A DNA stretch of 64,000 nucleotides. Source: Opitutus sp. GAS368. GTDB lineage: Bacteria > Verrucomicrobiota > Verrucomicrobiia > Opitutales > Opitutaceae. Location: assembly GCF_900104925.1 (NCBI RefSeq), contig NZ_LT629735.1:3455001-3519000 (forward strand), given 5' to 3'. Shown one piece after another: positions 47,201-60,933 of the stretch (position 1 is its first letter; each line of letters opens with the position of its first letter). The translations under genes and the position numbers were made by a program. The notes beneath the pieces were generated by a model. It saw only the letters and a list, made by a program, of their open reading frames with translations, made no database searches and was not told the origin of the DNA.

Positions 47201-48301
47201 TCAGCCAAGTTGTTTCACGGTCCCGCCAGGGAAGTATTTAGGGAAGATCAGGTTGGGTTGCGGCTCGAGATTGCCGTGATTCACCATCTGGAGCATCAAT
47301 CGGGAAAGCCGGTGAGCGAAGGTGTCGTCCTGCGGACTGTAATACGCGATCGGCGGGCTGACCGTCTCGAAAATGTGGTCATGGTCGCGAGCAATGAAGG
47401 AGACGGTATCCGGAACGGTCAGGCCGTGCTTTAGCAAGTAGAGAATGACGATGAACACGTGCTGGGGCTTGGCCACGAGCAAGGCGGTGGGGGCGTGGGC
47501 GGAGTTGAACAAGACGTCCAGCTTGGCGCTGATGTTCTGGGCCGTTCCGTTGTGGCGCACAATGCTCGCCCGGGCGTCGATCTGACGGTTGAGTTGGATG
47601 GACTCCATGAAGCCGACCTCGCTGGCGAGATCGCCAGCCACCCCTGAATGGGGCACAACCAGTGCCATCCGGCGATGACCCTTCGAGAGGAAAATGCCAC
47701 CGGCGTGACGGCAGACCGAGCGGTAGTCGATGTCCAGCGAGGGCAGCTTGACCTCGCTGTGGCAGGAGCCGAGCACGAGGGCCGGCACCGAATTTTCGGA
47801 GCACCACTGCTGAAGATCCTTGCTGACGGAAAGGAGCACGCAGCAGAGGACCCGGTTATGCCGGACAAATTCCTCGAGTTTGCGCCGCTGCGCTCGCACG
47901 CTTTGTGCCTGGCATACTAGCACTTCAGTGGTGAAACCCTGCTCGGAGAGGTGCCCGCGCATTTCGCTGATGATTTGGTAGGTGGCGACTGCCAGATGGG
48001 TGAATGGTTCGGGGGTAACGAGGCCGATGAGCCGGCTCTGCCGTTTGGGGGCCTGACGTGGTTGGGACAACAGGCGGTTGCGTCGGCCCTGGTGTATTTC
48101 GACCATTCCCTTCTCGGAAAGCATGCGCAGCGCAGTGCGAATGGTGGGGCGGCTCACGCGCAGCATACCGCATAGGCGGCGCTCACTCGGGAGGTATTCC
48201 CGCCAAGTGCCGTCGGTGATCGCCTGCTTGATCGAGTCGGCAGCTTGGGCCGCCAACGACATACGTTTGGGGATCTCAAAGGGGAGTGGGGAGCTGTTCA
48301 T
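47201..48301 (-). CDS. transcriptional regulator with GntR-type HTH and LacI-type sensor domain
   Basis: This 366-residue protein has an N-terminal winged helix (YLPSERRLCGMLRVSRPTIR, about residues 36-55; LSEKGMVEIHQGRRNRLL after it) joined at about residue 90 to a periplasmic-binding-protein-like sensor domain (RLIGLVTPEP, LDIDYRSV, HRRMALVVPHSG). This is the AraR-like architecture, usually a repressor released by a sugar. A candidate 17-bp operator overlaps its own start codon (48296-48312), and similar dyads lie before several catabolic and sialidase genes to the right, so it is the likely master regulator of 47-63 kb. Confidence 0.9.
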   Translation of the reverse strand: MNSSPLPFEIPKRMSLAAQAADSIKQAITDGTWREYLPSERRLCGMLRVSRPTIRTALRMLSEKGMVEIHQGRRNRLLSQPRQAPKRQSRLIGLVTPEPFTHLAVATYQIISEMRGHLSEQGFTTEVLVCQAQSVRAQRRKLEEFVRHNRVLCCVLLSVSKDLQQWCSENSVPALVLGSCHSEVKLPSLDIDYRSVCRHAGGIFLSKGHRRMALVVPHSGVAGDLASEVGFMESIQLNRQIDARASIVRHNGTAQNISAKLDVLFNSAHAPTALLVAKPQHVFIVILYLLKHGLTVPDTVSFIARDHDHIFETVSPPIAYYSPQDDTFAHRLSRLMLQMVNHGNLEPQPNLIFPKYFPGGTVKQLG

Positions 48302-48312
48302 AAATAATTACC
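48296..48312. promoter_or_regulatory. candidate operator 1 of the GntR/LacI-type regulator
   Basis: Read on the minus strand this is GGTAATTATTTATGAAC, one mismatch from the pattern GGTnA-n7-TnACC. It overlaps the regulator's own start codon and lies 50 bp before the divergent DapA-type gene. Autoregulation and control of that gene are likely. Confidence 0.5.
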
Positions 48313-48361
48313 AGTAGTTTATGATAGTTGAAGCGGGGGCGCTGTGACTGCTTAAGAGACG

Positions 48362-49264
48362 ATGAAATTGCTGCCCTCCGTAAGAATATGGTCTGCTGCA
48401 CCGACTCCGCTCACCCCGGATTTTCGCGTGGACGTGCCCTCGGTTGAGCGAATGGTGCAAGACGCCGTTCGTCACGGCGTGCACGGATTGTTCCTGGCCG
48501 GCACCTGCGGCGAGGGGCCTTGGCTGCAGGACCGGGAAAGGCAGGTCTTGGTGCGGACTGCGGTAAAAGCGGCCGGCGGCAAGCTGAAGATTGCCATGCA
48601 GGCTTCCGACAATTCGGTGCCGCGCATCCTGGATAACACCCAAGCGGCGGCCGAGGCCGGCGCGGATTATGTGATCATCGCCGCGCCAGCGACGTTCTTG
48701 AATGCGACGCCGGAGCGCGTGGTGGCGCACTTCACCGAGGCCGTAAATGCCAGCCCGCTGCCGGTGGGGATCTATGATCTGGGGAAGCACCGCCCGGTGG
48801 TCATTCCCGAGGCCCGGCTGAAGGAAATCTACCTGCTGCCCAAGGTGCATCTGGTGAAAGACAGCTCCGGTGACAAGGCGCGCCGCGCCGCGGCCCTGGC
48901 CGCCCGCCAGGAGAAGCCCGCGCTGCAACTTTTCAATGGCGATGAGTTCCGGTGCTTCGAATACCTTGAGGTCGGATACGATGGTTTCATGTTTGGCGGA
49001 GCGGCGGCCGTGGGTCCGCAACTCAATCGCATGGTCCGGCTTTTCCGCGCGAACCAATTGGCCGAGGCCCAAGCGCTCGATGCCGACATGAAGCGCATCC
49101 TCTACGGGATTTACGGCGGCCAGTCCATCGCCTGCTGGCTCACCGGCTTGAAATACTACATGATGCGCCGCGGATTGTTCACGACAACCAGCAGTTTCCT
49201 GGGCTACCCGCTGACCGAGGAGTGCCGCGCGTTCATCGAACGCTACGCGGAAACGGGCTTGTAA
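48362..49264 (+). CDS. DapA/NAL-family lyase (GTCGEGPWL subgroup)
   Basis: This 300-residue class I aldolase-type barrel has the pyruvate motif GTCGEGPWL, the tyrosine in GIYDLGK and the Schiff-base lysine Lys166 in HLVKDSS. It is a paralogue of the 41994-42959 protein: both begin with PTPLTxDxRVDVPSV. Given sialidases and a NanM-like protein in the same putative regulon, an N-acetylneuraminate-lyase-like role is possible, but its motifs differ from those of classical NanA (GSTGE). It is divergent from the regulator. Confidence 0.87.
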   Translation: MKLLPSVRIWSAAPTPLTPDFRVDVPSVERMVQDAVRHGVHGLFLAGTCGEGPWLQDRERQVLVRTAVKAAGGKLKIAMQASDNSVPRILDNTQAAAEAGADYVIIAAPATFLNATPERVVAHFTEAVNASPLPVGIYDLGKHRPVVIPEARLKEIYLLPKVHLVKDSSGDKARRAAALAARQEKPALQLFNGDEFRCFEYLEVGYDGFMFGGAAAVGPQLNRMVRLFRANQLAEAQALDADMKRILYGIYGGQSIACWLTGLKYYMMRRGLFTTTSSFLGYPLTEECRAFIERYAETGL

Positions 49265-49328
49265 ACGATCGCATCTGGACGAAAGCGGGCGGACGGTCAT
49301 GCGCGGTTGATTGATACGCCACACCATT

Positions 49329-49379
49329 GGTAACATGTCATGACCAGGAAAGCTTTTATACAGGTAAAACGAACTGACC
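49329..49379. promoter_or_regulatory. candidate tandem operators 2 and 3
   Basis: GGTAACATGTCATGACC (49329-49345) and GGTAAAACGAACTGACC (49363-49379) both match GGTnA-n7-TnACC exactly, 34 bp apart centre to centre. Oddly, they lie between the 3' ends of two convergent genes, so no gene starts beside them. They may be a relic promoter, an auxiliary looping site or a roadblock. Confidence 0.5.
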
Positions 49380-49411
49380 AGTAGCCCGCGGGCCGAGGGA
49401 GCCCGGGCGGG

Positions 49412-50668
49412 TCAGGCCGCGCGGGCGGCTTTCCGGCGGCGCAGGGCGAAGAGCAGCCCGGCGCAGACCAGGAGATTGGCGGAGGCGAACTGGAAGACCC
49501 GGCTGACGTCGATCTGGGCATCCCGCAGGAGTCCGCCCACGTAGATGCCGGCGGCGCCCACGAGGCAGCTGAAGAAAGTCGACAGACCCCAACTCATGGC
49601 CCGGTAACGGGCGTCCACGACCAGGCAGAGAATCGGCATCTGGTTGGCGTCCGCAAAATTCCGCGCCATCCCGTAGACGACCAGACCGCCCAGGGCCAGG
49701 GCCAGCGTCCCGGTATTGGCGATAAGCAGCACAGCCGGGGCGGCCAGGCAGAGGCCGACCACCGGCACGAGGATGCGGGCTTGCTCGTTCGTGCGGCTCC
49801 AGCGGTCGGCCCAGGCGCCACCGACCAGCATGCCGACCAGGGCAGCGACGTTCAGGTAGATCGTGGCGGACAGGCCGGCCGCCCCTTGGGAGAGATTGAA
49901 GTGTTCCTTGATATAGGTGGGCATCCAGCCGACGACCGACCAGCTGACCACGCCAAGCACGCAGGCGTAGACGAGCATGACGAGATAGCCGCGGTTGGTC
50001 AGAAGGTGGGTGAAAGCCTCGCCGATGCGCAGGGTGGGGACGGCGTCCTTGGTGGAGGGCGCGCCTTCCGTCGCGGGAGGATCGCGCAGCAAGGCCAGCA
50101 GCAGCCCCGAGAATCCCACGCCAACCAAGCCGAAGAGCTGAAAGGCATAGGCCCAGTCATGGCTTTCCGCCAGAGATCCGCCCAGTCCGGCCAGCGCGCC
50201 GCCGCTCATGGCGCCGCTGAGAAGCAAGCCGGAGGCCAGCGAGCGGGTGGCCCCCCGATGGTATTCCACGATGAGTGCGACGGAGGCCGGCATGCACGCG
50301 GCTTGGGTCACACCCATGAGTGCCCGGGTGATGAGCAGCTGTTCATAGGTCCTGGCGCAGGCGGTCAGGCCGGTGACCAGGGACCAAAGGAAGAGACTGC
50401 CGATGATGACGCGGCTGCGATTAAACCGGTCCGCAAAATAGCCGGCGAATGGGCTGCAGATGGCGTAAACGGTGAGAAAGACCGCCGTGAGCAAACCGAA
50501 CTGCGCCTCGGTCATGGGAATCGCCGCGTTGAGCGAACCACGCATGGTCGTGACCATCAGTCGGTCGAGATAGCTCAGGCCCGCGGTGACCCAGAGCAGG
50601 GCCACGGTCAGCCAGGCACCGGGGGGAGGTTGGAAGGAAGCGGCCGAGGGCTGAGTGGACGCGGGCAT
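49412..50668 (-). CDS. MFS transporter (TMRGS subgroup)
   Basis: This 418-residue carrier has the paralogous signature SYLDRLMVTTMRGS, IPMTEAQFGLLTA and GYFADRFNRSR and about 12 membrane segments. I chose the start MPASTQPS (50668); the frame is open upstream only as a shadow of the SGNH gene. It is the last gene of a three-gene minus operon with the SGNH hydrolase and the HpcH aldolase. It probably imports the acid sugar processed by these enzymes. Confidence 0.89.
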   Translation of the reverse strand: MPASTQPSAASFQPPPGAWLTVALLWVTAGLSYLDRLMVTTMRGSLNAAIPMTEAQFGLLTAVFLTVYAICSPFAGYFADRFNRSRVIIGSLFLWSLVTGLTACARTYEQLLITRALMGVTQAACMPASVALIVEYHRGATRSLASGLLLSGAMSGGALAGLGGSLAESHDWAYAFQLFGLVGVGFSGLLLALLRDPPATEGAPSTKDAVPTLRIGEAFTHLLTNRGYLVMLVYACVLGVVSWSVVGWMPTYIKEHFNLSQGAAGLSATIYLNVAALVGMLVGGAWADRWSRTNEQARILVPVVGLCLAAPAVLLIANTGTLALALGGLVVYGMARNFADANQMPILCLVVDARYRAMSWGLSTFFSCLVGAAGIYVGGLLRDAQIDVSRVFQFASANLLVCAGLLFALRRRKAARAA

Positions 50669-50723
50669 GGGGATTGAGGTGGGCCGGGTCGGGCGGCCAC
50701 GGGAAGACGGCGTCAGCCCGAGT

Positions 50724-51479
50724 TCAAGGCCGGGTGCTTGCGGCGGCGGAGTCGTAGCGCCCGATCGCCTTGAAAAACTCGATCGCGAACTGGCGATGGC
50801 CGGCGCCATTCGGATGGATCGGATCCGCCAGCCATTCGCGCCGCCCCGCGACCGTCGGCCTGGCCTCGAGCCAGCGGGTCCAATGATCGATGAGGATCGT
50901 GCCGGTGGAACCGGCCACCTGCGCGATGATTTCATTGTAGGCGGGCAGGTCGGTGCGCGTGAGAGTGTCGGGGTTGTCTGTGTCCACGGGATTGGTGCGG
51001 TGGAGCAGGGGAATAGCCCCGGCGACACGGACCTGCCGGACCATTTCGCGCAGTTCGGCCTCGAACGCGGCGCGCCCGGCCGGGCCGGCAACGGCATCGT
51101 TCATACCGATCATGATGGAGACGACATCCGGATGGAAGCGCAGCACCCGCCACGCGAAGTCGGCCCGCAGCCCGGCCGTCTTTTCGCCCGAGATGGCGGA
51201 GTTGACGAAAAAGTCACGGCGACGGTTCATTTCCCACCGGACACGTTCCTGGATCAACTCGGGATAGGACCGCTCGCGGCCCAGCCACTTCGCCCCCTGA
51301 GTGATCGAGTCTCCCGAGATTACCCAAGTCAGCGGCTTGGACGGTTGCGCAAGCTCCGCCTGCAGGGTCACGAGGTCGGCCAAGGGTGTCGGTTCAGGAG
51401 CGGGCTGGGCCTGAGAAAAGGTCGCGGCCATGCCCAGGAATGCGGCGGCCATGGGGCGCAGGCGGGTAACGGCCGTCAT
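50724..51479 (-). CDS. SGNH/GDSL hydrolase, secreted
   Basis: This 251-residue esterase-type protein has a signal peptide (cleavage near residue 25, FSQAQ), block I ISGDSIT, the glycine in NSAISGE, block III IGMND and block V DPIHPNGAGH, so the Ser-Gly-Asn-His set and catalytic Asp are complete. Unlike the SGNH protein at 18855 it looks fully active. It could remove O-acetyl groups from a sialic acid or other sugar in the periplasm. Its start overlaps the aldolase stop (ATGA). Confidence 0.88.
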   Translation of the reverse strand: MTAVTRLRPMAAAFLGMAATFSQAQPAPEPTPLADLVTLQAELAQPSKPLTWVISGDSITQGAKWLGRERSYPELIQERVRWEMNRRRDFFVNSAISGEKTAGLRADFAWRVLRFHPDVVSIMIGMNDAVAGPAGRAAFEAELREMVRQVRVAGAIPLLHRTNPVDTDNPDTLTRTDLPAYNEIIAQVAGSTGTILIDHWTRWLEARPTVAGRREWLADPIHPNGAGHRQFAIEFFKAIGRYDSAAASTRP

Positions 51480-52255
51480 GATCGGGCGATGCCATCCGAG
51501 AGATTTTTCGCATAGACGGGCAGCATTGTCATGATCGCGCCAAAGTCGCTGCCGTGGGCGATAAGCTTGCCGCCTTTCCGGACGATGCGCGCGATTTGCT
51601 CGACATTCCCGGCGGGCCGCCCCCAGGCGATGCGATGTCTTGCCGCCGCTGCGGCCACGGCGTCCTCGGCCCCGGTCATCTTGGGGTGGCTCCAGTCCAT
51701 GGGGCAGTCCAGCCGGATGGACAGGTCGCCGGGTCCCAGGAAGAGTCCGTCCACGCCCGGCGTGCCGGCAATTTGGTCGAGATTCGCGAGTGCCTCGGGG
51801 GTCTCGATCTGCAGGATCAGGAAGGTCTCGGTGTTGGCCGCCGCCGGATACTTGTCGGCGGCGCCGAGATAGAAGTTGTTGTCAAGGCTGGCGCCGTCGA
51901 GGCCGCGCTGGCCAAGGGGCGGGAATTTGACCGCGGCGGCGAGGTGGGCGGCGTCCTCCGCGGTATCGACCAGCGGAATCATCAGGGCGGTCACCCCGTC
52001 CTCGAGCAGATGGTAGAGCTCGTTGGCATTGCGGCTGCCGGTGCGGACGAGGCAGTCGATGTTGGCGAGATGATGGAGGGCGGCCAGGCGCTGGATCTCG
52101 CGCCGGTCCCAGGTGTTGTGCTCGGCGTCGAGCCAGAGGGCGTCAAACCCCGCCCGGGCGGCATGGGCCGGCATCATCGCCGTGGGGTAGTAGAGGGCGG
52201 CGATGCGGGCGGGGAGACCCTGTTGCAGCCGGGAGCGGATGAGTGAGGCGCGCAT
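51476..52255 (-). CDS. HpcH/HpaI-family class II aldolase
   Basis: This 259-residue metal-dependent pyruvate aldolase relative has the catalytic histidine in DAEHNTWDRR, the arginine in CLVRTGSRN, the metal Glu in LQIETPEAL and Asp in GPGDLS. Family members cleave 4-hydroxy-2-oxo acids, including 2-keto-3-deoxy sugar acids, to pyruvate and an aldehyde. ATG 52255 was chosen because sequence further upstream falls in the divergent promoter region. It heads the minus operon with the SGNH and MFS genes. Confidence 0.88.
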   Translation of the reverse strand: MRASLIRSRLQQGLPARIAALYYPTAMMPAHAARAGFDALWLDAEHNTWDRREIQRLAALHHLANIDCLVRTGSRNANELYHLLEDGVTALMIPLVDTAEDAAHLAAAVKFPPLGQRGLDGASLDNNFYLGAADKYPAAANTETFLILQIETPEALANLDQIAGTPGVDGLFLGPGDLSIRLDCPMDWSHPKMTGAEDAVAAAAARHRIAWGRPAGNVEQIARIVRKGGKLIAHGSDFGAIMTMLPVYAKNLSDGIARS

Positions 52256-52374
52256 GGGATGATGGAGGATGGTTCCGGACGGGAGGGGCGGCGATCGGCT
52301 GCGAGCTGATCGTAACGGACGACACCATCGGGCGCCGGCGCCAACCCGGCAATGCGGGAACAGGAGCAACCACA

Positions 52375-52445
52375 GGTAAAATTTTATGGCCAGTGGCCCG
52401 GGCGGGGCACCGGCGTGCCTGGACGACCGGTTAGGAAATGTTACC
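52375..52445. promoter_or_regulatory. divergent promoter with candidate operators 4 and 5
   Basis: GGTAAAATTTTATGGCC (52375-52391, one mismatch) and GGTTAGGAAATGTTACC (52429-52445) fit GGTnA-n7-TnACC. Read in reverse, the second matches operator 2 at 14 of 17 positions. They lie between the HpcH aldolase (minus) and the hydroxyacid dehydrogenase (plus). A gataat hexamer at 52450-52455 may be the -10 box of the plus gene. Confidence 0.55.
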
Positions 52446-52532
52446 ATGGGATAATTTTTGTCGGCAACGGCACCCTGGCGTCAGGATCGTTCCCCGGTAA
52501 AAGCACCTTTAACCGCCAACCCCCGTCCGCCC

Positions 52533-53552
52533 ATGCCCAGCCGCCCGCAGATCGTAAATGTAGATTGCAACTTCACGTATGAGCTGGAGCGCCGGCGCAT
52601 CGAGGCCGCCGGCGCCGACCTTGTCCTGCGGCGGGCGCGCACGGAGGACGAGATCATCCTGGCCTGCCGGGACGCGGCGGTGGTTCTCTTCGAAAACGCG
52701 GACACCCCGCTGAACGCCCGGGTCATCGCGGCGCTGCCGAAGTGCCAGGCCATCGTGCGGTATGGTGTTGGGGTCGACAGCATCGATCTGGTGGAAGCGA
52801 CGCGGCAAGGCGTGGTGGTGGCCAACTCGGCGGACTACTGCACGGAGGAGGTTTCGGATCATTCTACGGCCCTCATTCTGGCGGCGGCCCGCCGGATCGC
52901 CGTCCTCGATCGAAGGATCCGATCGGGCGGTTGGGTCGGCTACGATCCGCAGCAGCCGCTGCGTCGCGTCGCCTGTCTGACCTTGGGCCTATTGGGCTGG
53001 GGGCGGATCGCCCAGGCCGTTGCGCGAAAAATGTCCGGGTTTAACATGCGGATCATCGTGGCCGACCCCTACGTGCAGTCCCTTCCTCCCGGTTCTCCGA
53101 TTGAACTGGTTTCACGCGATCAGCTGCTGCGCGAGTCGGACCTGCTGTCCCTTCATCTGCCGCTGAACGTGGAGACCCGGCACCTGATGAACGAGCAGAC
53201 GCTCGGGCTGATGAAGCCGACCGCGTATCTGGTGAACACAAGTCGCGGCGGGATTATCGATGAAGCTGCGCTGGTCCGGGCCCTGCAGCAGGACAGGCTG
53301 GGGGGCGCGGCCCTTGATGTGTTCGAGGTGGAGCCATTGCCCGCCCCCAGCCCGTTGCGCACGCTTGAACAGGTCACCCTGACGCCGCATTACGCGGCTT
53401 CCTCGCAGGATTCAATGCGGCATCTGCACGGCACGGTGACGGATTCAGTGGAAGCCCTGCTCGGCGGGCATTGGCCGCCGTTTCCGGTCAACGGCAAAGT
53501 GGTGCCGCGGGAGGCCCTGCGGCCGTGGAAGGATTTTCGGCCGGGACGCTAA
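52533..53552 (+). CDS. D-2-hydroxyacid dehydrogenase, phosphoglycerate-dehydrogenase-like
   Basis: This 339-residue protein has the canonical catalytic set: Arg in NTSRGGIID, Glu in DVFEVEPLP and His in TPHYAA, with GLLGWGRIAQAV as the NAD motif and VRYGVGVDSIDL before it. It resembles PGDH-like enzymes without the C-terminal ACT domain, and differs from the GTGDP subgroup elsewhere in the window. ATG 52533 was chosen as it gives the standard N terminus (PQIVNVDCNF); an in-frame ATG at 52458 would overlap the promoter. It probably oxidises or reduces an acid linked to the divergent aldolase. Confidence 0.87.
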   Translation: MPSRPQIVNVDCNFTYELERRRIEAAGADLVLRRARTEDEIILACRDAAVVLFENADTPLNARVIAALPKCQAIVRYGVGVDSIDLVEATRQGVVVANSADYCTEEVSDHSTALILAAARRIAVLDRRIRSGGWVGYDPQQPLRRVACLTLGLLGWGRIAQAVARKMSGFNMRIIVADPYVQSLPPGSPIELVSRDQLLRESDLLSLHLPLNVETRHLMNEQTLGLMKPTAYLVNTSRGGIIDEAALVRALQQDRLGGAALDVFEVEPLPAPSPLRTLEQVTLTPHYAASSQDSMRHLHGTVTDSVEALLGGHWPPFPVNGKVVPREALRPWKDFRPGR

Positions 53553-53709
53553 GCGATCGGGGCCGCTCCGCACCGACCGATGGAGGGCCGGATGATGCGG
53601 TGCCGGGGGGACGTGCGGGATTGGCCGAGAAAGGCACGACGCTTTGGTGCGGGCGTTTCGGGCCGGACATGTTTCCACCGGTCGGATGGCCAGCGGGATT
53701 GCGCGCGCC

Positions 53710-53726
53710 GGTCAGGTATTCTTACC
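53710..53726. promoter_or_regulatory. candidate operator 6
   Basis: GGTCAGGTATTCTTACC fits GGTnA-n7-TnACC exactly and lies 87 bp before the glycosidase-like gene start at 53814. Its reverse reading matches operator 5's reverse reading at 13 of 17 positions. Confidence 0.5.
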
Positions 53727-53813
53727 AGAAGTCTTCTTTTGTCGCGGCTCGCTACGCCGCGCCATAAAAGACGCGCCCAGTGGTCTCCCCATCCCTTGCG
53801 AACGAATCCTGCG

Positions 53814-55370
53814 ATGAACCGGCCTCACGTCCCGCTCCTTTCCGCCCTGCTCCTGTTGCTTGCCGCCGCCGGTTCCATCCGCGCGGTGGAACCCAACCAG
53901 GACGAGGTGATCGACCTGGGCGCGCGGCGCGAACTGATGGTGGACGAGTTCCTGATCGCCCAGAAAAGCGGACTCGAGCTGAGACTGCATACGCCGACGC
54001 CCCGGGAGATCGTGATGGTCCGCGATGCGCCTTGGGAAGGCAGCGGCAGTGATTTCGAGACGCTGATCCGGGAAGGGGATCTGATCAGGATGTATTACAT
54101 AGGCAACGAGCTGACGAATGCGGACGGCACAACGCTGCATCAGGACCCGATCACGGCCCGGAGCCGCGAGATTTACGCCTGTTATGCGGAGAGCCGCGAT
54201 GGCATCCATTGGGTGAGGCCCGAACTCGGCTTGTTCGAGTTTCACGGTTCAAAGCGGAACAATATCGTCTGGTCCGGACCGCAGCTGGACAATTTCACCC
54301 CTTTCCGGGATGCCAACCCGGCTTGCCCGCCGGAGGAAAAATATAAGGCCATGGCGGCGGGCCCCGGCGGTCTGTTCGCGCTGAAGTCGGCAGATGGCAC
54401 GCACTGGTCCTACCTGGCCGGGAATCCCGTCATCACGCGCGGAAAATTCGACTCCCAGAACAACGCCTTCTGGGACCCCCTGCGCGGCCATTACTGGTGC
54501 TACCTGCGCGACTTTCATGATCGCGATGGCCAGCCCACCAACGACACAAAAACGGGAATCCGCGACATCCTGGTCACGACCTCCACCGACTTCCGGACCT
54601 GGAGCGAACCCCGGCGCGTGCAGTTTGGCAAAGCGCCGGACGAAGCCCTTTATATCAACGGCATCCAGCCATACGCGCGTGCCCCGCACCTGTTCGTCGG
54701 CTTTCCCGCGCGTTACGTTGACCGCGACTTTTCGCCGGAGGCGATGCGCACCCTGCCGGATCCGGAGCATCGGCAGCGACGCATGCAGTTTTCCCACCGC
54801 TATGGCTCGGTCGTGACCGATGCCATGTTCATGAGCAGCCGGGACGGCGTGAGCTTCGATCGCTGGGGGGAGGCGTTCATCCGCCCCGGTCCGCAGCGCA
54901 AGAACAACTGGGTGTATGGCGATGGCTTCGTCGGTCTGGGACTGATTGAGACCCCGGCCGAGGATCCCACGACCGAACCGGAGTTCTCGCTCTACATCCA
55001 TGAGGATCACTGGAAGGGACCGACCCGGCTGCGGCGGCACACGCTGAGGATCGACGGGTTTGTCTCACTGCAGGCGCGTCAGTCACCGGGTGAATTTGTC
55101 ACTAAGCCCCTGCGGTTTTCGGGACGAAAGCTTTCGGTCAATTTCTCCACTTCAGCCGCGGGTGCGATCCGGGTCGAATTGTTGGGCGCCGACGGCCGGC
55201 CCCTGCCGGGTTATTCCCTCAAGGAATGCGATGAGCTTTTTGGCGATACGCTGGACCGGACCGTCACCTGGTCCGGCCGTTCGGAGATCAAGGTTCCCGC
55301 CGGACAGGCCGTCCGGCTCCACATGGTTCTCAGCGACGCGGATCTCTATTCGCTGCAGTTCCAGCCATGA
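53814..55370 (+). CDS. secreted glycosidase-like beta-propeller protein
   Basis: This 518-residue protein has a signal peptide (MNRPHVPLLSALLLLLAAAGSIRA). The body resembles five-bladed-propeller glycoside hydrolases (GH32/43-like): MYYIGN, YACYAESRDGIHWVRPELG, DSQNNAFWDPLRGHYWCYLRD, TSTDFRTWSEP and NWVYGDG, each with acidic residues suited to catalysis. A C-terminal beta-sandwich (about 420-518) may bind carbohydrate. The substrate is unknown. It is the first gene of the secreted set that includes a sialidase, with a candidate operator upstream. Confidence 0.75.
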   Translation: MNRPHVPLLSALLLLLAAAGSIRAVEPNQDEVIDLGARRELMVDEFLIAQKSGLELRLHTPTPREIVMVRDAPWEGSGSDFETLIREGDLIRMYYIGNELTNADGTTLHQDPITARSREIYACYAESRDGIHWVRPELGLFEFHGSKRNNIVWSGPQLDNFTPFRDANPACPPEEKYKAMAAGPGGLFALKSADGTHWSYLAGNPVITRGKFDSQNNAFWDPLRGHYWCYLRDFHDRDGQPTNDTKTGIRDILVTTSTDFRTWSEPRRVQFGKAPDEALYINGIQPYARAPHLFVGFPARYVDRDFSPEAMRTLPDPEHRQRRMQFSHRYGSVVTDAMFMSSRDGVSFDRWGEAFIRPGPQRKNNWVYGDGFVGLGLIETPAEDPTTEPEFSLYIHEDHWKGPTRLRRHTLRIDGFVSLQARQSPGEFVTKPLRFSGRKLSVNFSTSAAGAIRVELLGADGRPLPGYSLKECDELFGDTLDRTVTWSGRSEIKVPAGQAVRLHMVLSDADLYSLQFQP

Positions 55371-55397
55371 GCAACGGCGCGCGCGGACAGCCGTTGC
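55371..55397 (+). terminator. hairpin directly after glycosidase-like gene
   Basis: The perfect 8-bp arms gcaacggc (55371-55378) and gccgttgc (55390-55397) begin right after the stop codon. No T tract follows, so this may be a weak or Rho-assisted terminator or an mRNA-stabilising stem. Confidence 0.35.
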
Positions 55398-55494
55398 GGT
55401 CCGCGGCCGAAGGGGCCGACCGTATCGGCCGGGAAGGCGGCGAAGGTTCATGAATGAGACCGGGGAGGTCGCACGGCATACCTCGGCCCGGGCT

Positions 55495-55511
55495 GGTTAG
55501 CCTGGATTACC
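55495..55511. promoter_or_regulatory. candidate operator 7, extended dyad
   Basis: GGTTAGCCTGGATTACC fits the pattern exactly. Here the dyad extends outwards: arms ggctggt (55491-55497) and accagcc (55509-55515) are perfectly complementary. It lies 114 bp before the NanM-like gene. Confidence 0.55.
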
Positions 55512-55624
55512 AGCCGGGCGGCGTTGTTTTCGATGTCGGCCCGGGGCTGACTCCGTGACAGCCGCTTGAGGCCGGTCCGCTTCCGGCTTGGCGGCCACCA
55601 TGCGGTTGTCCGCCGCCGGGCGAG

Positions 55625-57163
55625 ATGACGGCGGACAAGCGGAACCCTTTCATGACAAAACCACTCATCGCTGTTTGCTCCGCTCTGCTTGGCCGGGCTG
55701 CCCCCGGCGCGTCCCGTCCGTCGGCAGGGCTCGCTTCGGGCGGGACCCACTGGTTCGTGACTTGGACCAGTTCCACCGGTGACCGTTTGCAGGCGGTTGC
55801 GCCGATCGGAGCCGGCGATTGGTCGAGGCCGGTGGCGATTCCGCCCGACCGGGCAACGACGGCCCCCGAGGACGCGAACCTGCCGCCGGGCATCTTGGCC
55901 GAGGTCAAGCATGGCGGAGGGAAAGTGATTTTGCGCAGCGCACGCCGGGCCCCCGGCGTGCGGCCGGCGTTTCCCAGTGCGGGTCTGATCATCAGTCGGG
56001 CCGCTGACGGCGGCTGCCAGGACATGGCCTTCGCCGACGATCCGCCCGACGCGGAGATCCTGGCCGTGGCGCTGCGGGTGCAGGGCGACAACCTGCTGGC
56101 GGTCTACCTTGTCGCCGACGGGGGTGGATGGGTTGCCTGCCGGGCCTTGCGATTCTCCTTGGCGTCGGAGCGGCCCGAAGGCGATGCCTGGCGCCAATTG
56201 CCCGTCTATCCGCGATCGCCTGGCGTCGCCGCGGTGATCGCCGGGTTTCACGACGGCATGCTGATTGCGGCGGGTGGCGCCAATTTTCCCGATCGTCCGC
56301 CGTGGGAGGGTGGGGTGAAACGGACCTATGATGAGATCTACGCGCGATCCCTGGAGGGCGCGGAATGGCGGGCGGTGGGCCGGCTGCCGGCTCCGCGGGC
56401 ATACGCCGCGGTCGTCAGCGTGCCCGCCGGCGTGCTGGCCATCGGGGGTGAGAATTCCACCGGGGTTTTCCAGGACGCCCTGATGCTAAGCTGGCAAGGG
56501 GGGAAGATGGCCATCAAGCCCGCGTCTTCCTTGCCGGTGGCACTGGCCAGCCCGGCCGCGACGGTGCTCGATGGCAAAGTCTACCTCGCCGGCGGCTATG
56601 CCGCCGGCACTCCGCGGGTCAGCACCAATCATTTCTACTGCCTGGATCTGGCGAACCTCGCCGCCGGCTGGCAGCCGTTGGCTCCTTGGCCCGGGCCGTC
56701 CCGGGCCCTCGCCGTGATGGCCGCACTGGATGGAGCCGTCTACCTGATCAGCGGACTCGAGATGAATACCGGGGCCGATGGGAAGCAGGCCGTGCTGAAT
56801 TACCTTACGGACGCTTATCGCTACCGTCCCGGCAAGGGATGGGAAAAGCTGCCGGACTTGCCCTGGTCGGTTGTGGCCGCGCCCTCGCCGGCGCCGGTCT
56901 CGCCTCGGCCAGGCCGGGTCTTTGTATTTGGCGGAGTCGATGGCCGGCAGGTCGGCAAGACCCCGCGTGACCGGCGCGTGCCCGAGGACATCATCTATTT
57001 CGATGTCACCCGCCATGAGTGGCGCCTGTGGTCCGAGGCCTGGCTCGAGCCGGTGGTGAGCGCCCCGATCGTGAGCGTGGGGAATGAATGGGTGTTTGTT
57101 TCCGGGGAAACCATGGCCGGCCATCGCACGATGGCGGTGACCGCGTGGCGTCCGGGAATCTAG
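55625..57163 (+). CDS. N-acetylneuraminate mutarotase-like (NanM/cyclically permuted mutarotase family) kelch protein
   Basis: This 512-residue protein has an N-terminal non-kelch region of about 190 residues and then kelch repeats (IAAGGANFPDRPPWEGGVKRTYDEIY, LAIGGEN, YLAGGYA, YLISGLE, FVFGGVD). The ANFPD-PWEGG segment is the hallmark of NanM-type sialic acid mutarotases, which convert alpha- to beta-N-acetylneuraminate after sialidase action. Export is uncertain: MTKPLIAVCSALL at residues 10-22 could be a short signal. It lies upstream of the GH33 sialidase by about 80 bp, matching the order of action. Confidence 0.8.
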   Translation: MTADKRNPFMTKPLIAVCSALLGRAAPGASRPSAGLASGGTHWFVTWTSSTGDRLQAVAPIGAGDWSRPVAIPPDRATTAPEDANLPPGILAEVKHGGGKVILRSARRAPGVRPAFPSAGLIISRAADGGCQDMAFADDPPDAEILAVALRVQGDNLLAVYLVADGGGWVACRALRFSLASERPEGDAWRQLPVYPRSPGVAAVIAGFHDGMLIAAGGANFPDRPPWEGGVKRTYDEIYARSLEGAEWRAVGRLPAPRAYAAVVSVPAGVLAIGGENSTGVFQDALMLSWQGGKMAIKPASSLPVALASPAATVLDGKVYLAGGYAAGTPRVSTNHFYCLDLANLAAGWQPLAPWPGPSRALAVMAALDGAVYLISGLEMNTGADGKQAVLNYLTDAYRYRPGKGWEKLPDLPWSVVAAPSPAPVSPRPGRVFVFGGVDGRQVGKTPRDRRVPEDIIYFDVTRHEWRLWSEAWLEPVVSAPIVSVGNEWVFVSGETMAGHRTMAVTAWRPGI

Positions 57164-57241
57164 TCCCATGCCCGCCGGCAAGAAAATCCCCGGGCCCCCC
57201 GCAATCTCACGCGTTTGTCCACCCTTATGTTCCAACCTATC

Positions 57242-58420
57242 ATGAAATCATCCTTCACCGTTTCGCGCGCCCGATGCCTCGTCCCGTTGCTGCTGGTCTT
57301 TTTGCTCCCGGCGCAAACTTGCGCCGCACCGGCATTGCTGGAGCAAACCGACGTGTTCGTGGCCGGGCATGACGGCGTGTTCCAATACCGCATCCCCGGG
57401 ATCATCACATCGAACCAAGGCACGCTGGTCGCCTTCTGCGACGCCCGGATGGAGAGGGCCGGTGATCCGCCGAATCGTATCGATCTGGTCATGAAGCGCA
57501 GCGTTGACGGCGGGAAAACCTGGGGACCGCTGCGGACGCTGGTTGACAACGGCAAGGGGGCCGTCGCGGATTCCTGCGGGCTGGTGGACCGCCAGACGGG
57601 CACCCTGTGGATTTTCAGTGTCTACGCCCCCGAGGGGGTTGGCAGTCAAAACGCCGCCGACGGAGTTGCGGGCGCAACCTTTCAATTCAAAACGATCACC
57701 AGTGACGACGACGGCCTCACCTGGTCAGGGCCTAAGGATTTCACACCGATGATGAAGCGGCCGGATTGGGCTGCCGGCTCCACCGGGGTGGGCAACGGCA
57801 TCCAGATGAGAAACGGCCGGCTGATCCTGCCCCGATACAACGCCGACTATCGCCGCCCGCGCGCCACGCCCGAGACGGCGACCTCGTTCGTGTGCTACAG
57901 CGATGACCACGGAAAGACGTGGAAGATGGGAGCGCCGGTCCAGGGTGCCGGCGGCGCGAACGAATGCCAGGTCGCGGAGCTGACCGATGGCACCCTGATG
58001 ATCAACATGAGGGGCATGGCGGGCAACGCCCGCAAAGTGGCCTACAGCAAGGACGGTGGCGCGACCTGGTCGCCTCCGGTGGAAGATCCGGCGCTGATCG
58101 AGCCGCGCTGTCAGGGCAGCCTATGCCGGCTCACGGGCGCTTCCACGCCTGATCGTAGCCGGCTGTTGTTTGCCAACCCCGCCAGCCTGAAGCGGGAGAA
58201 TCTGACCGTGCGTCTGAGCTTCGACGAGGGACGCACTTGGGTGGCAGCGAAGTCGATCCACCCGGGCCCCGCCGCCTATTCGTGCCTGACCGGGCTCCCC
58301 GATCAGAGCGCGGGGTGCCTCTACGAGTGCGGGGAAAAGGACCCTTATGAGAAAATCACCTTCGCCCGCTTCAACGTGGAATGGCTGACGGATGGGAAAG
58401 ATACGTTGATGTCACGCTGA
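57242..58420 (+). CDS. exo-alpha-sialidase, GH33, secreted
   Basis: This 392-residue protein has a signal peptide (…LLLVFLLPAQTCAA). The first catalytic arginine is in YRIPGI (Arg50), and five Asp-boxes follow: SVDGGKTW, SDDDGLTW, SDDHGKTW, SKDGGATW and SFDEGRTW. Other active-site positions are the glutamate in NECQVAEL, the arginine in EPRCQG and the tyrosine in AAYSCL. All are expected for GH33 enzymes, which release terminal sialic acids from glycoconjugates. ATG 57242 gives the best signal peptide; ATG 57227 is the alternative. The product would feed the NanM-like protein and the MFS and DapA-type proteins of the cluster. Confidence 0.93.
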   Translation: MKSSFTVSRARCLVPLLLVFLLPAQTCAAPALLEQTDVFVAGHDGVFQYRIPGIITSNQGTLVAFCDARMERAGDPPNRIDLVMKRSVDGGKTWGPLRTLVDNGKGAVADSCGLVDRQTGTLWIFSVYAPEGVGSQNAADGVAGATFQFKTITSDDDGLTWSGPKDFTPMMKRPDWAAGSTGVGNGIQMRNGRLILPRYNADYRRPRATPETATSFVCYSDDHGKTWKMGAPVQGAGGANECQVAELTDGTLMINMRGMAGNARKVAYSKDGGATWSPPVEDPALIEPRCQGSLCRLTGASTPDRSRLLFANPASLKRENLTVRLSFDEGRTWVAAKSIHPGPAAYSCLTGLPDQSAGCLYECGEKDPYEKITFARFNVEWLTDGKDTLMSR

Positions 58421-58529
58421 TGCCCCGGTCTTGCTCGGTTGATCCGTCTGCTGCCGATATCATCGGTCGCCGGGTTCCATCACTGCGCCGTTTGCAACGG
58501 CGGACGAGTGGTCTCGCCGGACCGGAACA

Positions 58530-58545
58530 GGTAAGCTTATTTGCC
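58530..58545. promoter_or_regulatory. weak candidate operator before second sialidase-like gene
   Basis: GGTAAGCTTATTTGCC resembles the regulon dyad, but the spacing is one base shorter and one arm has a mismatch. It lies 36 bp before the start at 58582. I rate it as only possible. Confidence 0.25.
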
Positions 58546-58581
58546 ATGTAGTCGATCCTTTCAGGCTGCTTCAGCCGTCCC

Positions 58582-59763
58582 ATGATGAACCCGATGTCTA
58601 CTCCTACTATTACCCTTGCCGACAAAGTTTTCTCCCCGTCACGGCGGATGCTCCTCGTGGGTATTGCCGCCGGCCTTCTCTCTGTTTCGAGTGTCGCGGC
58701 GAGTTTGCCGCCCCACGATCTTGATCCGACGCCGGAGCATCCCCGGAATTCCGAAGGCAGCTATCTGACGCTTCGCTCCGGGCGGATCCTGTTCGAGTAC
58801 TCGCAGTTTTCAGACGGCCAGCAGGATCACAGCCCCTCGGCTATTGCTGAAATCCATTCGGACGATCAGGGGCGGACATGGAGCCAGCCCAAGGTGGTGG
58901 TCCCGACCGGCACTTATCAGAATGTCATGAGCGTTTCGCTGCTCCGGCTCGCCAGCGGCAAGATCGCGCGCTTCTACGCCGTGAAGAGGAGCAAATGGCT
59001 GGACTGCCACGCCATGATATCGCTCTCGAGCGATGAAGGGGGCACCTGGTCCGAGCCCAGGCCCGTGACCGCCGCGCCGGGTTACTTTGTCCTGAACAAC
59101 GATCGCGTCATCCAGACCAAGACCGGGCGGATCATCGTTCCTTTCGGTTTTCATCGGAGCCGGGGCGTCGCGGATGAGGAGTCGTCGTGGGATCCTCGCG
59201 CCCTCGCGATCTGGTATTACTCGGACGACGAGGGCGCCTCGTGGAAGGAGTCGGACACGTGGTGGGCGATTCCCGCACTGAGCACCTCGGGCCTGCAGGA
59301 GCCTGGCGTGGTCGAACTTTCCGATGGTTCGGTCTATGCCTGGTTCCGCACCGACCAGGGCGCGCAATATGAGTCCATTTCCAAGGACAATGGTGTGAGC
59401 TGGAGCCTGCCCCGCCCAACTGAATTGAAATCCCCCGTGTCGCCGGCGAGCATCAAGCGGCTGCCGCATTCGGCCACCCTCATGGTGGTTTACAACGATC
59501 ATTCCGGCAAGGTGCCGGCGCCGGCGAACCCGAAGCAGCGCGCGCCGCTGGCGGTGGCGTTTTCGACCGACGGGGCCAGGACTTGGGGACCGTCCCAGGT
59601 GATCGAGGACGATCTCACGGGGTGGTACTGCTACACGGCGATCCACTTTACCGATGATGCGGTGCTGCTCTCTTACGTGGCCGGCAATGCGGAGATCGGC
59701 CGCCTCTCCCGCTTGCGGCTTCGCCGAATTCCGTTTGCCTCGTTGCCCGTCCCCCCGAACTGA
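58582..59763 (+). CDS. sialidase-family (BNR repeat) protein, secreted
   Basis: This 393-residue six-bladed-propeller protein has Asp-boxes SDDQGRTW, SSDEGGTW, SDDEGASW, SKDNGVSW and STDGARTW. A signal segment includes SRRMLLVGIAAGLLS, which could be Sec or Tat. Instead of the RIPG motif it has NSEGSYLTLRSG, and an EPGVVELSDGSVYAWFRTDQG segment is found where the acid/base region lies. It is therefore a distinct sialidase-like subgroup common in glycan-degrading bacteria, and its linkage specificity may not be sialic acid. Starts at 58585 and 58594 are also possible. Confidence 0.85.
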   Translation: MMNPMSTPTITLADKVFSPSRRMLLVGIAAGLLSVSSVAASLPPHDLDPTPEHPRNSEGSYLTLRSGRILFEYSQFSDGQQDHSPSAIAEIHSDDQGRTWSQPKVVVPTGTYQNVMSVSLLRLASGKIARFYAVKRSKWLDCHAMISLSSDEGGTWSEPRPVTAAPGYFVLNNDRVIQTKTGRIIVPFGFHRSRGVADEESSWDPRALAIWYYSDDEGASWKESDTWWAIPALSTSGLQEPGVVELSDGSVYAWFRTDQGAQYESISKDNGVSWSLPRPTELKSPVSPASIKRLPHSATLMVVYNDHSGKVPAPANPKQRAPLAVAFSTDGARTWGPSQVIEDDLTGWYCYTAIHFTDDAVLLSYVAGNAEIGRLSRLRLRRIPFASLPVPPN

Positions 59764-59776
59764 CCGCCGCTTGCGC

Positions 59777-60670
59777 ATGATCCGCTGGCTGCCGCTGCTG
59801 TGCGTCTTCCTGGTGGGCGCGAGTCCGGCCCGGTCCGGTCCGGCGGATGGCGCCTGGCCGCTGCGCGCGAGGGCTGTGCTGCACGAAGTGATGGATCACG
59901 AGGAGAGTTGGATCAAGGTCCACGCGGCGGAGGCGCTGATGGCGGTCGGTGAGGCCGGCGCGATCCGCGGGCGTTTTCTGGAGTTCGTTCCGTCGGTCGA
60001 TGCACGGCCCTACCGCGTTGGGGTCTGGCGCGTGCTGGCCAACACTTCTCCGACCCCGCGCGAACGGGATGCCTGCCTGGCCCGGGTGGAAAGGATCTTC
60101 CTGAACCCGGCATCGGCCGACCGCTCCCAAGCCCTTGAAACCCTGTGCAAACTGCGCCACCCGGTCACCGGACCGACCCTCGACGAGGTGCGGAAGATCG
60201 CCGCCGACCCGCAGGCGCCGCTTCGCGGTCTGGCCCTCTGGGCTCTCCGGCTCACCCAGGAACGCGACGCGCTGGAATCGCTCTGCGCTTTGCTCCGGTC
60301 GCCGGATGAGGGCGAGCGTCTGGTCGCCGCCTATGCGCTTCGTCTGCTGCGCGAGGATAATCCGGCGGCCCTCGGCCAGTTGGCGCGGGCCGCCGGGATT
60401 GAATCGCCCCGGTCCCGGGCCTACCCGTATCTCTTGAGTGCGGCGTTTGCCCTCAACGCGGATCCGGCGCGCCGTCCGGCCTGGCGGATGGAGCTGGAAA
60501 AAATCCTGGCCACCGGAACCGCTGCGGCGCGCTTCGAGGCTTGCCAGGGCCTGCTTGAACAAATCACGGCGGCCGACCTGCCGCGTTACGGACTCCTTTT
60601 GGACGCACCGGACAATGACACCCGGGTGGGCGCAGCCCTGTCCATATTGCGGGTCTGGTCGGGGCGGTAG
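59777..60670 (+). CDS. secreted HEAT-repeat protein
   Basis: This 297-residue protein has a signal peptide (MIRWLPLLCVFLVGASPARS) and is almost entirely helical, with HEAT-like repeats: IKVHAAEALMAVGE, RSQALETLCKLRHP, LRGLALWALRLTQ, GERLVAAYALRLLRED and RFEACQGLLEQI. HEAT solenoids bind proteins; nothing indicates catalysis. It lies 13 bp after the sialidase-like gene, so the two are probably co-transcribed. It may help assemble an extracellular or periplasmic glycan-degrading complex, which is speculation. Confidence 0.8.
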   Translation: MIRWLPLLCVFLVGASPARSGPADGAWPLRARAVLHEVMDHEESWIKVHAAEALMAVGEAGAIRGRFLEFVPSVDARPYRVGVWRVLANTSPTPRERDACLARVERIFLNPASADRSQALETLCKLRHPVTGPTLDEVRKIAADPQAPLRGLALWALRLTQERDALESLCALLRSPDEGERLVAAYALRLLREDNPAALGQLARAAGIESPRSRAYPYLLSAAFALNADPARRPAWRMELEKILATGTAAARFEACQGLLEQITAADLPRYGLLLDAPDNDTRVGAALSILRVWSGR

Positions 60671-60868
60671 ATGTCGGGGATGGCGCGGGGTTCAAATCCG
60701 CGACCGCGTCGCTCTCGCGGTGCGGGCCATTCCGGTCGGCGACGGCCGCGGCGATCCCGGCCCAGCCGGCGCCGCATTGGTACCGGTCTCCCCGTGGGCG
60801 GACGCGGTCGGAAGCATTCGTTGGCGGGCGGGCGATTTAACGCGGATTATTCCAAGCCGGCGTTTACT

Positions 60869-60885
60869 TGTCACATTGTATATCC
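60869..60885. promoter_or_regulatory. weak candidate operator before third TonB receptor
   Basis: TGTCACATTGTATATCC differs from GGTnA-n7-TnACC at two of the eight fixed positions but keeps the flanking ag found next to operators 1, 3 and 6. It lies 48 bp before the receptor start. Confidence 0.25.
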
Positions 60886-60933
60886 AGTAGTCTGCTCTTC
60901 TCCCCCCAACCGGGCGCAACATTCTCGCCAGCG

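Follow-up and report, generated by a model that had tools for sequence, protein, structure and literature searches.

The 64-kb stretch of the Opitutus sp. GAS368 genome analysed here (the window; the genome, G000, is one contig of 4,150,783 bases) carries several copies of an inverted repeat, GGTNA-N7-TNACC, in a cluster that encodes a transcriptional regulator, a DapA-type lyase and a sialidase. Comparison of these sites within the genome and among relatives makes it very probable that the dyads are operators of the neighboring regulator (47201-48301), which joins a GntR-type helix-turn-helix (HTH) to a LacI-type sensor. The best reading of the sites is that this protein would control its own gene, the gene for the DapA-type lyase (dapA), a run of genes headed by an HpcH-type aldolase gene (hpcH), a dehydrogenase gene and an operon that begins with a NanM-like gene, and probably also a TonB-dependent receptor gene. 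An earlier note on this DNA had proposed a regulon linking secreted sialidases to cytoplasmic catabolism: the local regulon is well supported by comparative evidence, but the link to sialidases and to sialic-acid catabolism is weaker.

The regulator gene (47201..48301, minus strand) encodes a presumed DNA-binding protein of 366 amino acids, with an N-terminal GntR winged HTH at residues 17-73 (PF00392, E = 1e-13) and a C-terminal GalR/LacI-type domain at residues 204-362 (Peripla_BP_3, PF13377, 2e-17). This combination of GntR HTH and LacI-type sensor places it in the AraR subfamily by domain content, the available text of PMC4494728 describing that subfamily as having just this design. The best solved match of the HTH is NanR 6on4 (4e-6), while matches of the sensor include CcpA and AraR 3tb6. 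When its homologues were sought in the own genome and 56 other genomes (E <= 0.001), the regulator was the only match to itself in the former, and the best matches elsewhere (65-73% identity) came from six genomes, several of which retain the divergent regulator/dapA layout. One relative with a 3.5-Mb genome (G001) has 15 matches to the regulator versus one in the own genome. Scanning a wider collection yielded 69 regulator loci from a Lacunisphaera, Opitutaceae, other Verrucomicrobiota and some Kiritimatiellota. Analyses of register, start site, recognition helix and tree used 66 of them, L104, L106 and L114 being excluded for matches that stopped short of the protein start, were partial or were broken into segments.

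All five exact core copies that the earlier note had picked out by eye (49329, 49363, 52429, 53710 and 55495) are present, and they fall in about 6 kb; shuffled versions of the window average 0.45 copies, and none of 100 shuffles reached five. The one-mismatch copies at 48296 and 52375 were also recovered, with no further copy at zero or one mismatch between 46.5 and 64 kb, and the copy at 55495 does extend to perfect 7-bp outer arms (GGCTGGT...ACCAGCC, read directly). The first 46.5 kb of the window hold no exact copy and nine with one mismatch. Genome-wide, the exact core occurs 30 times in 4.15 Mb, 25 of these outside the window, compared with 23 occurrences of the reversed pattern that served as control; the bare core beyond the window is therefore at background level.

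An extended 23-bp form built using relatives, ACTGGTNA-N7-TNACCAGT with 14 fixed bases, has eight genomic copies at up to two of 14 mismatches (reversed control, two). Seven cluster within 12.6 kb of the window (48293-60888) and one lies elsewhere in the genome. Only one of these seven (55749-55771) is coding, the other six being intergenic or over the regulator start, so the outcome that the earlier note had named as refuting, equal numbers of hits within and between genes, did not occur. The claim that the dyads are confined to intergenic DNA holds for six of the seven core copies with zero or one mismatch, but the copy at 48296 lies over the regulator start and the one at 55749-55771 is intragenic. 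Two others (52375 and 53710) would be coding if longer open reading frames (ORFs) with earlier starts applied; the preferred gene starts are 52255 (hpcH), 52533, 53814 and 55652.

Conservation of the site in related genomes, which the earlier note had suggested checking, is evident at the regulator gene. Of the 66 loci, 42 have a dyad (at most four of 14 mismatches) close to the start of the regulator gene, whereas randomly chosen stretches, drawn 200 times, gave a mean of 1.9 and a maximum of 6; among the 39 loci with at least 47% identity, 36 have one. Among those 39, the dyad starts exactly 14 bases ahead of the start codon (-14) in 35, so its right arm forms the first codons, mostly ATG-A(A/G)C-AG(C/T), read as M-N/S-S. 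The window's own copy, GCTGTTCATAAATAATTACCAGT (48293..48315, two of 14 mismatches), overlaps the regulator start codon as had been claimed; it lies upstream of dapA and overlaps a sigma-70-like match towards that gene (48297-48325). In all nine regulator/dapA intergenic spaces shown, TTACCAGT faces a left arm TGTTCAT or a near form of it. In L077 (position 10001, on the same contig as G001:C28), a stop just after the conserved regulator start breaks the frame and the dyad is intact.

The copies are inverted repeats, one of them over a start codon and another (55492-55514) overlapping a terminator-like match, and could in principle act as RNA hairpins that sequester start codons or terminate transcription, rather than as protein operators. 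Complementarity is slightly raised in the spacers of 49 sites away from the regulator start, where pairs 9/15, 10/14 and 11/13 are complementary at frequencies of 0.35, 0.39 and 0.33, compared with 0.27, 0.27 and 0.28 expected. In these same sites, however, the free pair 7/17 is complementary in 24% versus 41% expected. Among 27 distinct sites at regulator starts, bases 5 and 19 are complementary in 7%, and the free pair 7/17 is so in 19%, its chance value. Sites are also found in divergent and convergent regions. Given no pairing covariation inside the arms, we rejected the hairpin explanation, which we regard as highly improbable, and return to the dyads as protein operators.

Dyads away from the regulator start point in the same direction. 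The count excluded sites at the regulator start and covered 634,714 bases, made up of 39 loci and 18 kb of the window; a simple caller marks 90% of this DNA as coding. At up to two mismatches it gave 18 copies between genes and 12 within coding DNA, versus no intergenic and 0-6 coding copies for six permuted half-site dyads. Half-sites CTGGT/ACCAG (one mismatch allowed) occur 20 times in intergenic DNA at a gap of 11, versus 0-6 times at 25 other gaps, with no such peak in coding DNA (35 at gap 11, 10-40 at the others). Because the simple ORF caller extends starts, some of the dyads counted as coding, including those at window positions 52372 and 53707, lie upstream of the preferred starts.

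Upstream counts for each gene family suggest which targets are shared. Upstream stretches that agreed in their final 120 bases entered as one, and a partial second gene for a major facilitator superfamily (MFS) transporter at 63.5 kb was left out. At up to three mismatches, a dyad precedes dapA in 27 of 29 cases (this being the regulator site itself), hpcH in 4 of 15 (0.08 expected), nanM in 2 of 15 (0.05), homologues of a gene at 53.8 kb in 2 of 8 (0.00), the gene for a second sialidase-like protein (sia2) in 2 of 5 (0.05; both loci near-identical) and the dehydrogenase gene in 1 of 3 (0.02). Close relatives remain in these counts: L080 and L090 for sia2, and L075, L080, L088 and L090 for hpcH at up to four mismatches. 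The counts mark the regulator, dapA and hpcH as the core regulon, the other targets being less certain.

Within the cluster, dapA (48362..49264, plus strand) encodes a member of the DapA/NanA superfamily (PF00701, 5e-28) that reaches the curated cut-off of none of the seven listed NCBIfam models. The minus-strand run begins with the HpcH/HpaI-type aldolase gene (51476..52255; PF03328, 5e-27 on a longer ORF, 51476-52447), followed by genes for a GDSL/SGNH esterase (50724..51479; PF13472, 5e-30) and an MFS transporter (49412..50668; PF07690, 8e-48). Divergent from it lies the D-2-hydroxyacid dehydrogenase gene (52533..53552, plus strand; PF02826, 4e-57 on a longer ORF, 52458-53552). Two putative operators occupy the region between them, one at 52372..52394 (two of 14 mismatches) and one 54 bp away at 52426..52448 (exact core; three of 14 mismatches in the 23-bp form). 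The dyads that the earlier note had placed before the lyase, the HpcH/dehydrogenase pair and the NanM-like gene were all found.

A further putative operator at 53707..53729 (exact core; three of 14 mismatches in the 23-bp form) precedes the 53.8-kb gene (53814..55370, plus strand). The earlier label 'glycosidase-like' for its 518-amino-acid product was not confirmed, the protein matching no family in Pfam or NCBIfam and having no relative by sequence in the PDB; its hydrophobic N-terminus, judged by eye, suggests secretion. Homologues of this protein recur in several clusters of the regulator's relatives. The NanM-like gene (55652..57163, plus strand) encodes a kelch mutarotase family protein (PF24996, 1e-32; TIGR03548, 6e-41, below its cut-off) and is preceded by the putative operator with 7-bp perfect arms (55492..55514, two of 14 mismatches). 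Near the start of this gene, about 250 bp past the upstream operator, lies a perfect ACTGGT-N11-ACCAGT (55749..55771; two of 14 mismatches in the 23-bp form), which may be a second, intragenic operator.

Downstream on the plus strand are genes for a GH33-type sialidase (sialidase 1, 57242..58420; PF13088, 2e-32), a second BNR/sialidase-like protein distant from solved sialidases (58582..59763) and a TonB-dependent receptor (60934..63339; PF00593, 1e-22); a HEAT-repeat protein is also encoded in the cluster. Control of the sialidases by the dyad is less well supported: sialidase 1 has no dyad of its own and would be reached only through the NanM-like operon, and the site before the second gene (58530) is poor. 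Both sites that the earlier note had ranked as weaker changed standing. The one before the receptor gene (core at 60869; 60866..60888) is stronger than stated, with two of 14 mismatches in the 23-bp form, but 58530 has four of 14 and was dropped from the operator set. A promoter scan gave five sigma-70-like matches versus 2.0 expected, one of them overlapping the regulator/dapA operator; it carries little weight because promoters of the host phylum are not covered.

Several results weigh against assigning these sites to the regulator, or against so wide a regulon. Because sites of the window itself helped to define the 23-bp consensus, the genomic count of this form is not independent, although most relatives are. 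Relaxing the limit to three mismatches gives 31 intergenic and 25 coding copies, the controls giving 0-2 intergenic but 1-51 coding. The MFS gene family has a dyad upstream in only 2 of 23 cases (0.10 expected), homologues of sialidase 1 (0 of 3) and of the TonB receptor (0 of 2) have none at up to three mismatches, and one pair of dyads in the window (49329/49363) is upstream of no gene. Below 47% identity to the regulator, the dyad is present at only 6 of 27 loci. Among these six, some dyads are perfect or near-perfect and lie ahead of the start (Chthoniobacter flavus L112, Prosthecobacter L130 and a member of the Verrucomicrobiaceae, L121), and members at 31-36% identity (Chthoniobacter, Prosthecobacter, Verrucomicrobiaceae, Verrucomicrobiales) have dyads with 0-3 mismatches. 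The recognition helix begins with SRP (Ser-Arg-Pro) in all 42 regulators that have a nearby dyad versus 4 of 24 that do not (Fisher, 3e-13), but a tree built without the HTH leaves only two well-supported independent helix/dyad pairs; the correlation is therefore a lead rather than proof and has no independent statistical weight.

Searches of whole genomes also cut both ways. Six genomes with distant members hold 11 perfect 21-bp dyads (reversed control, one), of which five abut a regulator of the same family, four already known and one new (Chthoniobacter); beside the other six, no relative was detected within flanks of up to 1.5 kb to either side. Across 387 genomes of the phylum, nine perfect (14/14) copies of the 23-bp form were found (control, three), and since none of the nine lies beside a detectable relative of the regulator, we rejected the perfect dyad as a regulator finder across the phylum. 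Six of the nine (L154-L159) share one near-identical sequence, coding in at least two of them, which misleads pattern scans; by eye, we take it to encode a Bro-N-like protein. Counts of the loose form set regulator-bearing genomes apart only modestly, at 53 versus 28 in the control for seven regulator-bearing genomes and 189 versus 246 for 50 others, and over these 57 genomes the count is weakly informative.

A transcription factor encoded elsewhere could instead bind the dyads, the neighboring regulator being merely one of its targets. The six perfect dyads without an adjacent family member would fit such a factor, as would the width of the operator, which is atypical of the AraR, FadR and HutC subfamilies as far as these are covered in the available text of PMC4494728 and PMC4218819. 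However, the site tracks the regulator gene in a fixed register, and the genome-wide dyad search itself turned up one more regulator of this family. We therefore consider a distant factor improbable and continue to regard the neighboring regulator as the probable binding protein. More plausible, though still not the account we favor, is that the copies before the TonB receptor and 53.8-kb genes (and at 58530) arose by chance, leaving true operators only at regulator/dapA, hpcH/dehydrogenase, NanM and the 3' region of dapA. The mismatches at 58530, the receptor and sialidase 1 homologues without a dyad, and the low share of 53.8-kb homologues with one would agree with this, but 53710 is an exact core copy and 60866 has two of 14 mismatches, a level that only one genomic copy outside the cluster reaches.

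The pair of dyads that precedes no gene lies where dapA and the MFS gene converge, between their 3' ends (49265-49411). Its members, at 49326..49348 (two of 14 mismatches) and 49360..49382 (one of 14; the only genomic copy with fewer than two), are 34 bp apart. The same pair with the same spacing occurs in L067 and L069, likewise facing a convergent MFS gene, and L066 also has a 34-bp pair (one copy with two core mismatches) with no ORF of at least 100 codons starting within about 0.6 kb. Random sequence of equal make-up gives such a pair in 0.01-0.05% of trials. Five other loci (L076, L079, L081, L101 and L102) have a single dyad at the same place, before a co-directional gene that follows dapA and reads as a short-chain dehydrogenase (Pfam was run on the L080 homologue only). 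L075 and L080 have the short-chain dehydrogenase gene and no good dyad before it (best, six mismatches).

Most likely, the pair is a former operator of the gene downstream of dapA, lost or displaced in the window's subclade. Its persistence could reflect a role as an auxiliary looping site or, alternatively, an unseen transcript. AraR is described in the available part of PMC4218819 as looping between in-phase boxes; although the 34-bp spacing here is not a whole number of turns, a looping role is possible.

Sialidase 1 aligns with solved GH33 sialidases over residues 39-364 (E = 6e-54) and keeps the RIP and Asp-box motifs, which marks it as a predicted GH33 sialidase. The earlier proposal of sialic-acid catabolism fared less well: nanA-type models score 54.3 and 52.2 bits on the DapA-type lyase, far below the N-acetylneuraminate-lyase cut-offs of 281 and 382, and at E <= 0.001 the own genome has no match to NanE (PF04131) or to the N-acetylglucosamine-2-epimerase family (PF07221), other epimerase types not having been searched. 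An N-acetylneuraminic acid pathway through either of these two known epimerase families was accordingly set aside, and 'sialic acid' is unproven because neither was detected. Non-amino ulosonic acids such as 2-keto-3-deoxynononic acid (KDN) and 3-deoxy-D-manno-octulosonic acid (Kdo) are candidate substrates. A compound of this kind, split by DapA- or HpcH-type aldolases, would need no epimerase and would fit equally well. A literature search on Kdo hydrolases and sialidases turned up nothing that decides the substrate. In L080 the cluster (5.0-9.0 kb) adds genes for a short-chain dehydrogenase, an AstE/AspA-type deacylase, a DUF4432 protein and a pyridoxal-phosphate-dependent enzyme, a gene set that hints at an N-acylated substrate.

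The design of the regulator and the nature of its putative targets suggest a repressor lifted by a sugar acid, with binding likewise deduced. A dimer would read the half-site ACTGGTnA and its mirror, with the conserved GT and AC 11 bp apart. When inducer is absent, the protein would bind over its own start codon and at the promoter region of dapA and block transcription; one site would repress both genes because it covers part of the promoter-like match of dapA as well as the regulator start. It would also occupy the two sites of the hpcH/dehydrogenase divergent region, whose 54-bp spacing (about five turns) suggests cooperative binding, and would repress the TonB receptor gene, the 53.8-kb gene and the NanM-like gene, whose operon probably also includes sialidase 1. 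A small sugar acid freed from the substrate would then bind the LacI-type sensor and lift repression.

Among characterized systems, the closest in design is Bacillus subtilis AraR, which shares the GntR HTH and LacI sensor and has several palindromic operators, one at its own gene and some acting as cooperating pairs (available text of PMC4218819 and PMC4494728). The AraR box, At(T/A)tGTaCGTAcaa(A/T)T, has its GT and AC 4 bp apart, whereas those of the present dyad are separated by 11 bp, so the system is best seen as a variant of AraR architecture with a different operator geometry. The AraR subfamily serves arabinose, xylose and galactose regulons; the neighbors here, in contrast, encode a DapA-type lyase, an HpcH aldolase, a hydroxyacid dehydrogenase, a NanM-like protein and a sialidase. 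Escherichia coli NanR (GntR, FadR subfamily) offers the best solved HTH match, has GGT in its element and controls sialic-acid genes. Its sensor domain is of FadR type, not LacI type. Unlike the present dyad, the NanR element consists of (GGTATA) direct repeats, according to the accessible portion of PMC8012715. The window holds no AraR box at up to three mismatches and no NanR repeat at up to two, which rules out both as its operators.

Regulators of the YtrA subfamily are not known to have a LacI-type sensor. Their operators resemble the present one in placing GT and AC far from the palindrome center, a likeness by description in the available text of PMC4494728. The rule given there for GntR-family operators, NyGTNxACNy, is obeyed by the consensus ACTGGTnA-N7-TnACCAGT. 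Bacteroides thetaiotaomicron NanR is similar in that one regulator serves a sugar-scavenging pathway with some periplasmic or extracellular proteins (PMC3878776, in the part available), but it belongs to ROK, another family of DNA-binding proteins. In searches of the open-access literature that covered listed titles, the openings of abstracts and matching passages (including PMC4052901 and PMC3750489), we found no such operator described for Verrucomicrobiota, subscription papers being mostly outside that scope.

Tentatively, and as a joint claim rather unlikely to hold in every part, these patterns may trace a GntR/LacI clade, spread over several Verrucomicrobiota families, whose operator is of the wide GT-N11-AC form. 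The main branch of this clade would have it built into the start codon of the regulator itself, where it would dictate the first residues, M-N/S-S; in a Lacunisphaera-like subclade, the 34-bp pair would have outlived the gene that it served, as a promoterless auxiliary looping site between convergent genes. The dyad offers an operator that can be tested and a means of linking GntR/LacI regulators of Verrucomicrobiota to their targets. It also suggests that, in this little-charted phylum, a known chimeric repressor design has come to use another spacing between its half-sites.

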